Source of the DNA: a virus
IMG/VR virus record: IMGVR_UViG_3300016457_001510
Location: 1-40,267 of that record
Reading direction: 5' to 3' (one strand)
DNA length: 40,267 nucleotides
Shown: piece after piece, positions 3,667 through 36,693 of the stretch
How the letters are laid out: every line of letters begins with the position of its first letter
How positions within the stretch are numbered: position 1 is the stretch's first letter
Made by a program: the position numbers and the translations under genes
The notes under the pieces: generated by a model
Told to the model about the DNA's origin: nothing
Database searches by the model: none
The model's input: only the letters and a program-made list of their open reading frames with translations

Positions 3667-5018
3667 GATGTTTTAAGTTCGCCGTGAGTACTCTCCGCGC
3701 TCATTCTGAACGGGCCCGGATTATACGATTTTTTGTGGCGAAATTGTTTCGCTTCCAAAGGGTACTTAGCACCGATCAAGGCGCAAAAGAGCACGCCACA
3801 GGTCAACACATCTATGCTTACCATGCGTGCAGCAAGGATAGCAACAATCCCATAGTTTAGGGCTGCTTGATATGGCGTAGTAGAATAATTGCGCAAAGCC
3901 CGAATTAAAATTGTAGCGAACAAAAGAGTTCCGATAAGCCCGATGTTCGATAGTAAGACGAGCAACAAACCGTTCGACCGTACACTTCCGGCACCGACGC
4001 CAAGTCCATAGCTATCCCAAAAAGCCTTGATGCCATAGTATGCCCAAGCCCCACGTTCGTATCCAGAAACGCTGTCTGCCTTGCTAAATAAAGCTGCTTC
4101 CAAAACTCCCAATACAAGGTCGGGTTTCGCAGCTAGAAACAATAGTGCGCCAGTAACAACGAGTCCGACACTTGCATAAATTTTCTTGTTTACTTTTCTT
4201 CCAGAGGTTCCTTTCAGGATAGTAAATAATCCGAATGCCGCAATGGCAACAAAGCCTGTTGAACTCACAGAGAGAAGGCAGAAGATTAAAGTAATCATGC
4301 CTGAAGCTAAGAACCAACGTTTCCCGGTTTGATAATAGTAGCCAAGAAAATAAGCCCCCATTGCAGCTGAAAAATCGGCATATCTAGATGCTTCAGGAAA
4401 TGAGCCGACCAAACGCGCAAAGCCGCTAGCGCTGGCGCCTAACTTGACCTTGTTATCTCCCGTTAGAAGGGGATCTAAGAAAAATGGGCCAAGAGCTAGC
4501 GCCAAACATGAAAGAATTATGTTGGTTACGCCCGCAATAACAAGCATCTTGTGAATTTTATGGGGAGATTTACGAGCAATAGTCGCAAAAAACATGATGT
4601 AAACTACAGAAATTATCAAATAAAATGTCTGCGAAATGTTGGCTGAGCTGTGCTCTAGCGGCACAAGTGAAGTTGAGAACAGCGTGCTCAAGCGTACACC
4701 ATCGCTTAAACTGACCGGAATAACGAACATTCCGCGAAAGATGGTAGGATAGAAAAGAGCGGTTATAATCGCATACACTGCGAGCGCAATTGGGACGAGA
4801 AATAGCCTACGAATTTTGCCGTCAAAATGGAACACGAAATAACAAAGAGCAAGCGATGCAAAATAGAAGTCTGCAACATTCAAAGATGCGCCAGACGCAG
4901 ACAAAACTGCGGTGGTAGCAAATGGCACTACTACGCCTCCTGCGGCCAACAGACCCACGCGGGTCGACAATAGGAGAGCGATGACAATTGGCAGGAAGCC
5001 GATTGGAAAAATAGCCAT
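3663..5018 (-). CDS. O-antigen polymerase/ligase-like polytopic membrane protein
   Basis: A 451-aa inner-membrane protein with about ten to twelve hydrophobic helices and a larger loop before a YGLGVGAGSVRSNG segment, typical of the Wzy/WaaL O-antigen polymerase/ligase superfamily, which polymerises or transfers undecaprenyl-linked polysaccharide on the periplasmic face. Sequence in this superfamily is poorly conserved, so polymerase versus ligase cannot be decided. It is first in a two-gene minus-strand unit with the glycosidase-like gene (4-bp overlap). Codon use is AT-rich relative to the tail genes on its other side. In serotype-converting phages an alternative polymerase replaces the host linkage; that function here is inference. 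The N-terminus (MAIFPIGFLPIVIALL) is a membrane helix with no cleavable signal. Confidence 0.78.
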   Translation of the reverse strand: MAIFPIGFLPIVIALLLSTRVGLLAAGGVVVPFATTAVLSASGASLNVADFYFASLALCYFVFHFDGKIRRLFLVPIALAVYAIITALFYPTIFRGMFVIPVSLSDGVRLSTLFSTSLVPLEHSSANISQTFYLIISVVYIMFFATIARKSPHKIHKMLVIAGVTNIILSCLALALGPFFLDPLLTGDNKVKLGASASGFARLVGSFPEASRYADFSAAMGAYFLGYYYQTGKRWFLASGMITLIFCLLSVSSTGFVAIAAFGLFTILKGTSGRKVNKKIYASVGLVVTGALLFLAAKPDLVLGVLEAALFSKADSVSGYERGAWAYYGIKAFWDSYGLGVGAGSVRSNGLLLVLLSNIGLIGTLLFATILIRALRNYSTTPYQAALNYGIVAILAARMVSIDVLTCGVLFCALIGAKYPLEAKQFRHKKSYNPGPFRMSAESTHGELKTS

Positions 5019-5185: not shown

Positions 5186-6190
5186 TTAAAACGTTTCACC
5201 CTCGACGTCGCAACGATAACCGCCGCTGTCGATCGTGTGAGTCACACGTGTGATCAGCCACTCGCCATCAACGCTATGACGAAATCCGGAGAGCACAAGA
5301 CGAGCCTCAGCGACGAGATCAGGGTCACCCGGCAATGATATCGAGACGGTCATGCCTGCTCGCTGCGAGCGCCTATATTCCGCATCAGCTGCCCTTTGGG
5401 CCGCATCCTGCGTCGGAAAGCGACGTTTCAGGCGGCGCACCGGTTTACCATCGCCAGCAATCACCTCGACATCGGCTGCGGCGCTCTGATCACGCCATAC
5501 GGCGATGACCTGGCCCGCCGGGTCGCGCAATGATCGGCGAAAGCGCCACCGGCTAACCTGCGATGGTATCAGCGACAGCCGTGGCATGTCCTGCCCACTT
5601 GCCGTCTTACTTTCACCGCGCTGGAACATGCCGAGGAAACCTCCGCCAGGCTTTGCGATTGCGTCGATATCCAGCGCTACCCGCGTCAGAAGGTTTATGT
5701 CGCTCTCATCCGTCTGGTCGAGGTGCGGGAGCGTGATCGAGGCGATGCTCTCGGATACGGCGGGTTTCAGGCCATGCTCGCCAGCGATTGTAGAGACAAG
5801 CGTCGAGACGGTCGTGCCTTCCGGCCAACTGCGATTCTTCTGCTCGGTCAGGGCAGTCTTTCCGCCGGACGTTGTTCCGTTCACGCTTGCAACTCCAGAA
5901 ATCCGCATAAGGTCTGGCGGCCCGCCAAGTTCGACGCTGTCAGCGATAAACAGGCCCATATATTTGAGCTTAAACATGTATCCGAGCGCGACCTCGATCT
6001 CCGCGCCATTTGGCGGAATTTCGAGCTTTGCATAAGGTAAATGATCTGTGAGCGAGATCTCGACCGTGTCCGACTGCACGCCAGCCTCATCGGTGAGCGT
6101 GATTGATGACAGCCGCGATGCGAAAATAGATGTCACGTTCGTGCCGTTCACGATAACGTCAAAGGCCGGCTTCCAGTCGGTCAATCCCAT
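5186..6190 (-). CDS. D: Phage tail protein D (P2 gpD-like baseplate hub)
   Basis: Late control protein D family, forming the central baseplate hub that holds the spike and tail tube end, related to VgrG and T4 gp27. The 334-aa length matches P2 gpD. It opens with DWKPAFDVIVNGTNVT and a first beta domain (SSITLTDEAG...DTVEISLTD, residues 27-48), then the family's LTRVALDIDAIAKPGGG region near 175 and a C-terminal beta domain ending in DVEGETF. It is the last gene of the P2-order block T-U-X-D and overlaps X by 10 bp, which fixes its start. P2 gpD was first seen as a late control factor, but the structural role is the certain one. Confidence 0.92.
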   Translation of the reverse strand: MGLTDWKPAFDVIVNGTNVTSIFASRLSSITLTDEAGVQSDTVEISLTDHLPYAKLEIPPNGAEIEVALGYMFKLKYMGLFIADSVELGGPPDLMRISGVASVNGTTSGGKTALTEQKNRSWPEGTTVSTLVSTIAGEHGLKPAVSESIASITLPHLDQTDESDINLLTRVALDIDAIAKPGGGFLGMFQRGESKTASGQDMPRLSLIPSQVSRWRFRRSLRDPAGQVIAVWRDQSAAADVEVIAGDGKPVRRLKRRFPTQDAAQRAADAEYRRSQRAGMTVSISLPGDPDLVAEARLVLSGFRHSVDGEWLITRVTHTIDSGGYRCDVEGETF

Positions 6191-6393
6191 AGGCGCACGC
6201 TCCCCGTGCTCTGATCCTCGTCGGTGATCTCTGGCAATGCGATCTGCAGGCCCTCGGGCAATATCGGCCCATAGGATGCCAGGTCATGATTTGCCGCGAG
6301 CACGGCCTCGACGATGCCGTCGTTTTGCCGCCCGTAATAGAGCCAAACAATGCGATCGACCGTGTCGCCTTCCTTAGAACGGTAGTATTGCAC
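6181..6393 (-). CDS. X: Tail protein X (P2 gpX-like, LysM-type)
   Basis: Short 70-aa tail protein with a LysM-like fold; in P2-type phages it sits in the baseplate/tail hub region. The sequence YYRSKEGDTVDRIVWLYYG followed by VLAANHDLASYGPILPEG is the family pattern. I chose the GTG at 6393 because GGAGG lies five bases upstream and the protein then begins exactly where homologues do. An in-frame ATG pair at 6408/6405 would add four or five residues and lacks this spacing. The gene overlaps the end of U by 20 bp and the start of D by 10 bp, so translational coupling is likely. Confidence 0.88.
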   Translation of the reverse strand: MQYYRSKEGDTVDRIVWLYYGRQNDGIVEAVLAANHDLASYGPILPEGLQIALPEITDEDQSTGSVRLWD

Positions 6394-32646: not shown

Positions 32647-32883
32647 TCAAGCCGCTCTCTCATCACTGGAAGCCGCTGCATCTCCATCCTTAGGCGCAGA
32701 CACCCAAGAGGCTGCAGCGACGGCCCCCCCTGTTATGCGCTCGATAGACACTGCAAGCTCCAAACTTGGTCGCATCATGTTGCGAGCAAGCCGCGAAACC
32801 GTGGCTTGCTTCACTTTGATCTCATCAGCGAACGCGGCTTGGGAAATGCCGGTTTTTGCAAGGTACTCTGAAAGGGTCATCAT
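32647..32883 (-). CDS. cro: Cro-like repressor (HTH, P22 Cro/YdaS type)
   Basis: A 78-aa DNA-binding protein with helix-turn-helix at residues 3-45 (TLSEYLAKTGISQAAFADEI then KVKQATVSRLARN) and GGAVAAASWVS after it, typical of P22 Cro/YdaS-like proteins. It is transcribed divergently from the repressor and heads the early-left operon. I chose the ATG at 32883: a strong promoter (TTGACG, 17 bp, TATATC) ends seven bases before it, so the message would start at the ATG itself and be leaderless. In-frame ATGs further upstream (32928, 32952) would lie in or before the promoter. It would repress the maintenance promoter. Confidence 0.78.
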   Translation of the reverse strand: MMTLSEYLAKTGISQAAFADEIKVKQATVSRLARNMMRPSLELAVSIERITGGAVAAASWVSAPKDGDAAASSDERAA

Positions 32884-32889
32884 GGTGAC

Positions 32890-32918
32890 GATATACGCTA
32901 CAGGAATATACGCGTCAA
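32890..32918 (-). promoter_or_regulatory. Early-left promoter with operator-like spacer (cro operon)
   Basis: TTGACG at 32918-32913, exactly 17 bp, then TATATC at 32895-32890 (minus strand). The spacer CGTATATTCCTGTAGCG is shared at 15 of 17 bases with the early-right promoter at 34820-34848. GCGTATAT occurs twice as a direct repeat 15 bp apart across the spacer and -10, probably the repressor binding sites. Confidence 0.75.
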
Positions 32919-32926
32919 GAATGTTC

Positions 32927-32941
32927 ATACGGGACCCGTAT
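32927..32941. promoter_or_regulatory. 15-bp palindrome between cro and repressor, candidate operator
   Basis: ATACGGG-A-CCCGTAT, a perfect palindrome between the two divergent genes, nine bases upstream of the cro -35 and directly before a possible repressor promoter (TTGCCA at 32942, 17 bp, GAGAAT at 32965). Found once only in the window. Likely bound by Cro or the repressor. Confidence 0.55.
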
Positions 32942-32976
32942 TTGCCAAACACCCAACTCCGAGTGAGAATTGGAAT

Positions 32977-33291
32977 ATGACAAACATTGCCTATTACAGA
33001 AAATTGCGCGGACTAAGTCAGGAAGACTTGGCCCAAAAGGTCGGGGTAAAGCAGCCCCATATATCGCGCATTGAAAATGGCGACGATGGTCCGCCGCTCC
33101 GCCTCTTCAAGGACATTGCCGACGCTCTTGATGTGTCGTTGGCAGACCTTTTTTCAGAACAGATGAGTAAGGCCGCGCTTATGGTTGTCGATGCGTTTCG
33201 GTCTGGATCTGACGAGACTCGACGCTTGATGTCTGCGATGGCGAAAGAGGTAGAACACCAGCCTCAAGCAGGAGATCGACAAAACTCCTAA
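32977..33291 (+). CDS. CI-like phage repressor (short, HTH XRE family)
   Basis: A 104-aa XRE-family regulator. The helix-turn-helix covers residues 1-60: MTNIAYYRKLRGLSQEDLAQ then KVGVKQPHISRIENGDDGPP and IADALDVSLADLF. It lacks the LexA-like protease/dimerisation domain of lambda CI; the remaining 40 residues are a helical tail (AALMVVDAFRSGSDETRRLM), so induction cannot be by RecA-stimulated self-cleavage and must use another route. It is divergent from the Cro-like gene across a 93-bp operator region. The role as immunity repressor is inferred from this arrangement. Confidence 0.8.
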   Translation: MTNIAYYRKLRGLSQEDLAQKVGVKQPHISRIENGDDGPPLRLFKDIADALDVSLADLFSEQMSKAALMVVDAFRSGSDETRRLMSAMAKEVEHQPQAGDRQNS

Positions 33292-33343
33292 ATTTAACAA
33301 TGTCCATTGATAGAACGCGCCTTTCAAATTCATCTGCCGTCAT
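33179..33343 (-). CDS. Possible small antisense gene overlapping the repressor 3' end
   Basis: A 54-codon frame starting ATGACGGCAGATGAATTTG on the minus strand, reading MTADEFERRVLSMDIVKFRS then FVDLLLEAGVLPLSPSQTSS. It has a strong ribosome site (GGGGGTGAG, close upstream) and a helical start, but its second half lies opposite the repressor coding end. It could be a real small gene, whose transcription would also oppose the repressor, or chance. No family recognised. Confidence 0.3.
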   Translation of the reverse strand: MTADEFERRVLSMDIVKFRSFVDLLLEAGVLPLSPSQTSSVESRQIQTETHRQP

Positions 33344-33650
33344 AACTCACCCCCAACCCGCCAATTAGAACAAAATGAGAACATTTGAGCTGAGAGTCAA
33401 CGCAGGAGTAACTCATTATTGGGCCAAGACGCTCCGCACAGCAAATTATGCTAATGACACGATGCATGCGAATAAAAGCCTTAAAGCGAGCCAAAGCAAA
33501 CCACCTCACCCGCAGGCAAACTCATTCAGCTACCACCCTGGCTCACATTTTTGACTGAGTATACAATGGAACACTGGCCATTATTGATTGACTCGCAAAT
33601 GAATAGATGCTCACTTTTAAATATGCTTTATATTTAAGAGGTTATACATT
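33344..33650. other. AT-rich non-coding stretch upstream of accessory gene
   Basis: About 300 bp with no convincing gene, clearly more AT-rich than the phage core. The last 60 bp contain TTTATATTTAAGAGG, that is a TATATT -10-like box close to the ribosome site of the next gene, so its promoter is probably here. Otherwise nothing recognised. Confidence 0.45.
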
Positions 33651-34385
33651 GTGTCATCGAATGATCCATTTCTTGGTGTCTACCTAAAACTTGATAGAGC
33701 TAGTCACCACATCAATGATTTTAAGCGCATAGTGGATCAATGGGTGAAAGCAAACGCACGCTCAGTTAGGGCAAAAAACAAGAAAAAACCTACAACTTGG
33801 GGTACAAAACTCCCGCGCCACGCCCCAACAATTCTCGGCGATGCGTTACACAACATGAGAGCTGCATTAGATCACGCATACTGCACCCTCGTTGAAGCTA
33901 ACGGTGGAAAAATCAACAGCTATACGAAGTTCCCAATCAGAGAGGACAGGCATGGCTGTGCATCGATGATTAAAGGGCAGAAACTAGGCTCCACCCCCAG
34001 TAATGCCGTATGCGATTTCATCTTGAATAATATCCAGCCGTACGGCGGTGGGAAAGGTGCAGACCTTTACGGCCTGCACAGCCTAGATATTTCCGACAAG
34101 CACACCAACATCATCGCTGCAAATTCGGTCATCAAAAACAAAGTTATATCCACCGGACCTGGCGGCGCTAAGATTTTTGGCGGCACGTTCATTCTAAACG
34201 CAAACAACAAATTTCTTGAAGCCGCTCCCGGTGTCGATGTAAAATTTGAAGGAAATCCAGAGACTGCCTTTTTTATTCATTTTGCTAATGGACAACCATT
34301 TGAGGGAGATGAGATCGCACCCACCCTCACGTCGCTCCACGCAAGTACGACTATCGTTGTGAATAGCCTAAAAGAGCTAGCCTGA
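33651..34385 (+). CDS. Accessory protein of unknown function with R-x4-H motif (possibly HEPN-like)
   Basis: A 244-aa cytoplasmic protein starting at GTG (AAGAGG nine bases upstream). Residues 58-80 (APTILGDALHNMRAALDHAY) form the only clear motif: a helix with L-H-N-M-R-A-A-L-D-H, a pattern I know from widespread unannotated proteins ('LHNLRSALDHL'). Arg70-x4-His75 fits the R-x4-6-H catalytic motif of HEPN ribonucleases, but the rest does not confirm that fold. A basic segment (ARSVRAKNKKKPTTW) precedes it and the C-terminal half is beta-rich. It stands alone between the repressor and the early-right operon, AT-rich, beside an IS remnant: a typical lysogen-expressed accessory gene, perhaps for defence against other phages (inference). 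Confidence 0.6.
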   Translation: MSSNDPFLGVYLKLDRASHHINDFKRIVDQWVKANARSVRAKNKKKPTTWGTKLPRHAPTILGDALHNMRAALDHAYCTLVEANGGKINSYTKFPIREDRHGCASMIKGQKLGSTPSNAVCDFILNNIQPYGGGKGADLYGLHSLDISDKHTNIIAANSVIKNKVISTGPGGAKIFGGTFILNANNKFLEAAPGVDVKFEGNPETAFFIHFANGQPFEGDEIAPTLTSLHASTTIVVNSLKELA

Positions 34386-34435: not shown

Positions 34436-34700
34436 GGGTCTGTTGACGTTCAGAATTTCCATTCGGTGTGAGTTCTGATTCAAGGTTGCAAACAGAGGAG
34501 AGCAACCTTGAGCCGACGCGCCCTGACCGACGCCCATTGGGCGATCATCGAACCTTTCTGCCTTGGCAAGCAAACCGACCCCGGCCAGACCGGACGCGAT
34601 CCGCGGTTGTTTATGGAAACGGTCTTGTGGATTGTGCGCACGGGCGCGCAGTGGCGCGAATTGCCTGCTGAGTTCGGGCAGTCGTGGCAACAATCATTCG
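34436..34700 (+). mobile_element. Remnant of an IS5-family insertion sequence (left part)
   Basis: Starts with GGGTCTGTTGACGTTC next to CACTA, which looks like a left inverted repeat about 70 bp before the transposase start. Only the first fifth of the element remains; the right end and rest of the transposase are absent, so it is immobile. It marks an insertion/deletion scar between accessory gene and early-right promoter. Confidence 0.6.
34508..34684 (+). pseudogene. Truncated IS5-family transposase (N-terminal fragment)
   Basis: Begins at TTG with GAGGAGA upstream and reads MSRRALTDAHWAIIEPFCLG, then RLFMETVLWIVRTGAQWREL and PAEFG, the standard DUF4096 N-terminus of IS5-type transposases. 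Homology stops after about 58 residues, where the normal 'W..v..rf.rW...G' continues; the frame then runs into unrelated sequence (QSWQQSFGSDEHQQALEP) and the terminator. No DDE catalytic residues remain. Confidence 0.75.
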
Positions 34701-34718
34701 GCTCCGATGAACATCAAC

Positions 34719-34756
34719 AGGCTCTAGAGCCTCGCCTCCGTGCGGGGTTTTCTTTT
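34719..34756 (+). terminator. Intrinsic terminator with overlapping palindrome
   Basis: CCTCGC (34730-34735), six-base loop, GCGGGG (34742-34747), then TTTTCTTTT: a good rho-independent terminator on the plus strand. The upstream arm overlaps a perfect 14-bp palindrome AGGCTCTAGAGCCT (34719-34732), so two exclusive folds are possible. It would stop accessory-gene or IS transcripts before the early-right promoter. Confidence 0.75.
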
Positions 34757-34819
34757 GCCTCTATAGCACTGTGATTCGAATTTCTGAATATTAAGTATTC
34801 CCATTGGGTATTTTTATAC

Positions 34820-34848
34820 TTTACAGGTATATTCCTGTTGCGTATATA
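34820..34848 (+). promoter_or_regulatory. Early-right promoter with operator-like spacer
   Basis: TTTACA (34820-34825), 17 bp, TATATA (34843-34848). The spacer GGTATATTCCTGTTGCG differs from the early-left promoter spacer at only two of 17 positions, strong evidence for a common repressor operator. An ACAGG/CCTGT inverted repeat lies at the start. Transcription would begin near 34855, giving a leader of about 58 bases before the first gene. Confidence 0.75.
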
Positions 34849-36147: not shown

Positions 36148-36693
36148 ATGTTCGACAAAACCACACGCACCGCCATTTTCATTGATGGCTCGAACCTCTA
36201 CGCGGCCTCAAAGGCGCTTGGGTTTGACCTCGACTATAAGCGCTTGCGTGACCACCTCGACGGCCTCTGCCAAATGCAGCGCCTGTCTTATTACGCGACC
36301 ATTTTTGATGACGAAGAGTTTAGCCCAATCCGGCCTCTGATCGACTATCTGGCCTACAACGGCTTCAACATGGTGACCAAACCCGTCAATACCTACACCG
36401 ACGCTCTGGGCAACCGCAAAGTTAAAGGCGGCATTGACGTCGAAATCACAACCGACGCGATGGAAATCGCGGACTGTGTGGACCACATCGTGATCTTTTC
36501 CGGCAATGGCGACTTCACCGCCCTGATCGGCGGGCTGCAGCGCCAAGGTGTGCGCGTGACTGTGGTGTCCACCATTCGCTCGCAACCCTCCATGTGTTCC
36601 GACGATCTGCGCCGCGCCGCCGACGAGTTCATCGAATTGGACACCCTGCGCCCCATCATCGCCCGCCCGCCGCGCGCGGTCGCAGCGGAGTGA
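36148..36693 (+). CDS. NYN-domain (LabA/DUF88) ribonuclease-like protein
   Basis: A 181-aa PIN-like protein of the NYN family, metal-dependent RNA nucleases. Acidic residues at the expected places: Asp13 in AIFIDGSNLYAA, Asp97 in KGGIDVEITTDAM with Asp103, and Asp122 in IFSGNGDFTALI. The family's VVSTIRSQPSMCSDDLRRAA DEF region follows. It has AAAGGAAT as ribosome site and no extra C-terminal domain. In phages such proteins may degrade host RNA or counter host tRNA/RNA-based defence; this is open. Catalytic residues are intact, so activity is likely. Confidence 0.85.
   Translation: MFDKTTRTAIFIDGSNLYAASKALGFDLDYKRLRDHLDGLCQMQRLSYYATIFDDEEFSPIRPLIDYLAYNGFNMVTKPVNTYTDALGNRKVKGGIDVEITTDAMEIADCVDHIVIFSGNGDFTALIGGLQRQGVRVTVVSTIRSQPSMCSDDLRRAADEFIELDTLRPIIARPPRAVAAE

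Follow-up and report, generated by a model that had tools for sequence, protein, structure and literature searches.

The stretch of DNA analysed here (the window) is a complete virus record of 40267 bases. It carries a lone accessory gene, which follows a Cro/C1-type repressor and precedes a truncated IS4/5-type transposase (Table 1). Given the local composition, the probability that a start is followed by 244 open codons by chance is about 2e-6, and the protein has homologues of 18–42% identity, hence the open reading frame is a genuine gene. The sequence AAGAGG, resembling a ribosome-binding site, precedes it, and the AT-rich inverted repeat found there may be an operator or a hairpin. A preliminary description, made from the sequence alone, had considered the gene an AT-rich accessory gene beside the repressor and an IS scar. 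The accessory position was borne out by the profile matches of both neighbours (PF01381 and PF13340). The GC content is indeed low, 46.7% compared to 54.9% across the window, though not extreme (9.5% of 735-nt window segments have an equal or lower value). The same description had assigned the gene its own promoter; a consensus scan of the + strand between 33292 and 33650 found no such site.

Table 1. Positions of the accessory gene, its conserved motifs and the surrounding features in the window.
Feature	Position	Strand	Basis
Divergent Cro-like regulator	32647–32952	-	Profile matches
Operator-like ACAGGAATATAC, Cro side	32900–32911	+	Exact match; putative function
Cro/C1-type repressor	32977–33291	+	PF01381, E 7.2e-18
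AT-rich upstream region, 41.8% GC, without consensus + strand promoter	33292–33650		Composition, consensus scan
Inverted repeat with 11-nt arms (91% complementary) that covers part of the ribosome-binding-like sequence	33614–33640		Repeat scan
Lone accessory gene (P0001), HEPN-like family, 244 aa, GTG start	33651–34385	+	ORF and homologues
Conserved motif G63-D64-x2-H67-N68-x-R70-x3-D74-H75, helix 2, H75 variable	33837–33875	+	Alignment, model
Conserved D149-K150-H151 just past helix 3, candidate catalytic His	34095–34103	+	Alignment, model
Truncated IS4/5-type transposase (IS scar)	34508–34774	+	PF13340, E 2.6e-16
Operator-like near-palindrome before the right-hand operon	34823–34838		Sequence match; putative function

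Exact occurrences of operator-like sequence are located at 32900 and 34823–34838, and the accessory gene therefore lies between two probable repressor sites. An inverted pair at 32900/34816 was also considered as a remnant of IS1595 repeats, but this was rejected, repressor operators being the better reading. The right-hand operon encodes an NYN-domain protein (36148–36693; PF01936, E 8e-33), a putative RNase.

No closer phage was found by DNA match in the phage collection searched. Among 15 window proteins compared, five viral loci had only the replication protein in common with the window. One viral locus related by this protein, a predicted prophage, encodes a quorum-sensing pair (L062:2846–4120) made up of an autoinducer synthase (PF00765) and a regulator that binds the autoinducer (PF03472). 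The pair is situated between the repressor and an integrase-like gene. In L061, the corresponding slot adjoining the repressor is occupied by a zinc-ribbon protein that probably contains a membrane helix (5500–6225).

Distribution of the family and association with IS1595 elements

The window protein had no match beyond chance in Pfam, PHROGs, NCBIfam or PADLOC, 25 family members matched nothing in Pfam and PADLOC, and sequence searches of the PDB returned nothing convincing or nothing. Viral contigs yielded nothing when scanned with either the window protein or the plasmid protein (see below) as a single query, and an initial genome scan for family members was likewise empty. By tblastn, matches were obtained to gp32 of Gordonia phage ZiggyZoo and to a gene of a Mycolicibacterium plasmid. 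An alignment including these two proteins led to four viral loci, and the enlarged alignment to 22 loci in the genome collection, distributed over Alphaproteobacteria, Acidobacteria, Actinobacteria, Chloroflexi, Nitrospirota and one Bacteroidetes MAG. In a viral library, one unnamed 275-aa protein also matched (E 1.6e-6). Thus, relatives are widespread and uncharacterised, in agreement with the preliminary description.

The distribution is patchy, with the gene present in 1–8% of the sampled genomes of five groups, in addition to phages and one plasmid. Counting the seed genome in each case, it was found in 15 of 298 genomes in the family of the Blastomonas locus L009, in 4/295 in the family of the Rhodobacteraceae locus L018, and in 13 of 200 in the order of the Brevundimonas locus L010 (genomes G002, G005 and G003, respectively). 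At the level of phylum, the counts were 23/296 for the Actinomycetes locus L016 (G009) and 6/149 for the Acidobacteriaceae locus L011 (G008). No conserved partner gene was seen when neighbourhoods, delineated by a crude gene caller, were inspected by eye.

In the Brevundimonas locus L010, the family gene and an IS1595-type transposase lie within inverted repeats flanked by a 14-nt duplication. An IS1595 transposase adjoins the family gene in 24 of 92 loci (86 from genomes and six from phages, viruses or a plasmid, near-duplicates included), contig ends explaining some of the other 68; all six of the phage, virus and plasmid loci lack it. The three transposases tested carry PF12762 with PF12760. 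At equal locus size, the transposase was present in 19/64 family loci versus 0/60 HepT/HEPN controls, which come from one phylum (Fisher p 9e-7, each locus being taken as independent). Fifteen family-bearing genomes, selected partly for the IS1595 link, hold 0 to 4 IS1595-type transposases each.

Inverted repeats enclose both the transposase and the family gene in 15 of the 19 transposase-bearing loci scanned, the exceptions being L018, L123, L142 and L178. Direct repeats of 7–14 nt, mostly 8 or 9, accompany 12 of these 15, and no flanking direct repeat was detected in 16 transposase-less regions, the window included. Elements with the family gene measure 1965–3648 bp; in that of L008 (1982 bp), a small divergent ORF takes up what the family gene and the transposase leave. 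These results establish the protein family as a passenger of IS1595 transporter insertion sequences (ISs) in relatives. Small divergent Lys/Arg-rich ORFs of about 40–55 aa were noticed upstream of the family gene in L008, L010, L013, L123 and L124, and L010 contains a second passenger ORF of 105 aa (4463–4777) with no Pfam match.

Around the window gene we found neither an IS1595 transposase nor a terminal repeat pair of this type, a direct repeat or a remnant of IS1595 repeats. The window protein clusters with those of L008, L009 and L010 (support 100/99, the bootstrap not being fully settled), and in L008 and L010 the gene is a passenger in a complete IS1595 element. Given this clade, the window copy would most simply have been captured from such an element.

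Two further viral copies occupy moron settings. In L007, the family gene is on the other strand from the genes for prohead protease, capsid and portal; in L004 it adjoins an integrase-like gene. Hence the accessory setting of exclusion morons is seen both beside the repressor (window) and opposing late genes (L007). The gene of L007 also neighbours an Mrr-type nuclease. Restriction-endonuclease-type genes near family genes, hand-picked and without statistics, are those at L007:5772–6251 (Mrr_cat) and L016:6420–7376 (PDDEXK_13/REase-ARP).

Predicted fold and conserved residues

AlphaFold models were obtained for the window protein (mean pLDDT 79.3, pTM 0.79) and for a compact Nitrospirota member (mean pLDDT 86.7, pTM 0.81), the two being 27% identical. 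Both show two long helices, an insert, and a third helix ending right before a D-K-H motif, which is followed by a beta-rich segment, itself poorly predicted, and by a final helix. Foldseek against the PDB returned no significant match, the best (E 1.2) being a HEPN. With VIA-align, HEPN chains top both lists, at Z 9.7 for the window model and 9.3 for the second, values to be read with the caveat that for helix bundles Z below about 13 may reflect a common arrangement. In the top 15 rows of the window model (Z 9.7 to 6.9), 5yep and YutE (1ylm) are termed HEPN in the available text of PMC7157771 and PMC3710099, respectively. Ten rows are titled HEPN or MntA-HepT, and 7bxo (a toxin-antitoxin entry), 3mfn and 3c18 are not named HEPN. 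We take 7bxo to be a HepT complex. The first unrelated row has Z 6.8. For the second model, the titles of seven of the nine top rows name HEPN or HepT (Z 9.3 to 8.0), the remaining two rows being 1ufb and 7bxo; a designed bundle comes next at Z 8.0, and hemerythrin-like and designed bundles fall at Z 6.6–8.0.

Pfam HEPN models matched none of 25 family members, and HHalign of the family against PF01934 and PF05168 scored no better than reversed decoys (comparison alignments of 25 rows for HepT-like and 21 for HEPN). The protein is thus HEPN-like as judged from the models, not proven HEPN: a HEPN-like helix arrangement appears in two models, but unrelated helix bundles score nearly as high, Foldseek gave no significant match and known HEPN profiles did not match.

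The preliminary description had based the HEPN assignment on R70-x4-H75 within LHNMRAALDH. The motif is present in the window protein, but we rejected it as the HEPN motif because it sits in helix 2 and position 75 is His in just 35 of 68 aligned family members, the conserved His being H151. R70 and H75 occur together in 35 rows, versus 65 for R70 and H151, and the pair first noticed is therefore not the conserved one. In the same 68 rows, the helix-2 residues G63 (66), D64 (64), N68 (59) and R70 (66) are highly conserved, position 74 is Asp in 64 and Glu in 4, and downstream D149, K150 and H151 are kept in 64, 63 and 67 rows, respectively.

The position of H151 agrees with that of the HEPN catalytic His, located just after helix 3 according to the available text of PMC3710099. 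H151 is nearly invariant, but the canonical HEPN Arg is missing: no Rx4-6H motif was found at the end of helix 3, where position 146 is mostly Asp (29), Ser (17) or Asn (12). In the Parep1/8 family, as far as the accessible description goes, the His is likewise kept and the Arg lost, with substitution by other basic residues being possible. The models and the alignment together suggest a composite site formed by helix-2 residues (R70, D64 and D74) and by H151 after helix 3.

Possible role and alternative explanations

We tentatively favour the explanation that the gene is former IS1595 cargo kept by a temperate phage and codes for a lysogen-expressed, RNase-type exclusion factor with a HEPN-like core. 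The gene would be a moron, descended from a family that moves as an IS1595 transporter-IS passenger and taken up by the phage. Its product would fold into a four-helix core of HEPN-like type, helices 3 and 4 being separated by a beta-rich insert. RNA would probably be cleaved, independently of metal, at the composite site of D64, R70, D74 and D149-K150-H151, in which H151 would be the catalytic His and R70 and K150 would compensate for the missing HEPN Arg. In the lysogen, the product would most likely be dormant until triggered by a superinfecting phage, whereupon infection could be halted at the RNA level in the style of abortive infection. By analogy with Tha (see below), a superinfection-aborting RNase made in the lysogen would be the likeliest role.

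The view that the protein is a selfish IS1595 accessory, serving transposition control or addiction but not defence, with the phage copy a benefit-free leftover, appears improbable to us. In elements as short as about 2 kb, such as that of L008, the transposase is accompanied by no sizeable passenger other than the family gene, and the small divergent basic ORF upstream in five IS-linked loci could be a partner, both of which would suit such a function. However, no transposase adjoins the gene in the 68 loci mentioned above (partly through contig ends), the gene stays intact in phages and a plasmid, and the small ORF was unseen by eye at the window or at the transposase-less loci checked. We give no more credence to a non-catalytic, HEPN-like RNA- or nucleotide-binding protein, serving as a regulator or, to the benefit of the phage, as a counter-defence factor. 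The canonical Arg is absent here, and some motif-less HEPN domains are thought to be non-catalytic in the available part of PMC3710099; yet charged residues of active-site type are kept in nearly all 68 divergent rows, which binding alone would hardly require.

The least probable of the alternatives in our estimation is an enzyme built as a helical bundle but differing from HEPN in fold and chemistry, its likeness reflecting a common helix arrangement. The Z-scores below 13, the hemerythrin-like and designed bundles not far down the list, and the absence of a sequence-profile link to HEPN all fit this idea. It is countered by the HEPN chains at the top ranks for models of two members so divergent, and by the family's conserved His, which coincides with the HEPN His location.

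Extending the favoured reading, that of an exclusion factor derived from IS1595 cargo, to the whole family is a bolder and rather doubtful step. The family would then represent a minimal mobile immune unit: an IS of about 2 kb comprising an IS1595 transposase and one antitoxin-free RNase with a rewired HEPN-type site (R70/D74 with D-K-H151). Such units would have reached several phyla, and temperate phages and plasmids would repeatedly have acquired them for exclusion. The favoured reading, if right, would name a widespread unannotated family found on insertion sequences, phages and plasmids, explain part of the IS1595 passenger content, and mean that simple ISs are able to carry a single-gene conflict protein. 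R70, D74, K150 and H151 would become a test set for a HEPN-type site lacking the classical Arg.

Comparison with known systems

HEPN RNases (HepT, AF0298 and the sacsin HEPN), as portrayed in the accessible sections of PMC3710099, resemble the family in the four-helix arrangement seen in its models, polar helix-2 residues, a conserved His just past helix 3 and an insert between helices 2 and 3. Unlike them, the family has no Rx4-6H Arg (Asp, Ser or Asn at position 146 in 58 of 68 rows) and carries D-K-H instead, has helices 3 and 4 separated by a large insert rich in beta structure, and shows neither a profile match nor, as far as seen, an MNT partner. Tha, a Staphylococcus prophage HEPN anti-phage system, is akin to the proposed working model in being prophage-encoded and abortive-infection-like, a likeness by description. 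In contrast, Tha has 301 aa, a canonical R265-N-S-I-M-H270 motif and is paired with Ith (available text of PMC11087260).

IS1595 elements bearing passengers are known as transporter ISs (PMC3129680, PMC8496243). In the portions of these open-access papers at hand, the likeness comprises a PF12762 and PF12760 transposase, inverted repeats, direct repeats and a passenger gene, and a HEPN-like passenger is unmentioned. The window copy differs in having no remaining element. A transposon-borne HEPN-type gene is also described in the available text of PMC7157771, namely the HEPN/MNT pair of the Tn3-family transposon TnSod9. This is a two-gene toxin-antitoxin system with a canonical HEPN, whereas the family reported here travels as a lone gene in an insertion sequence.
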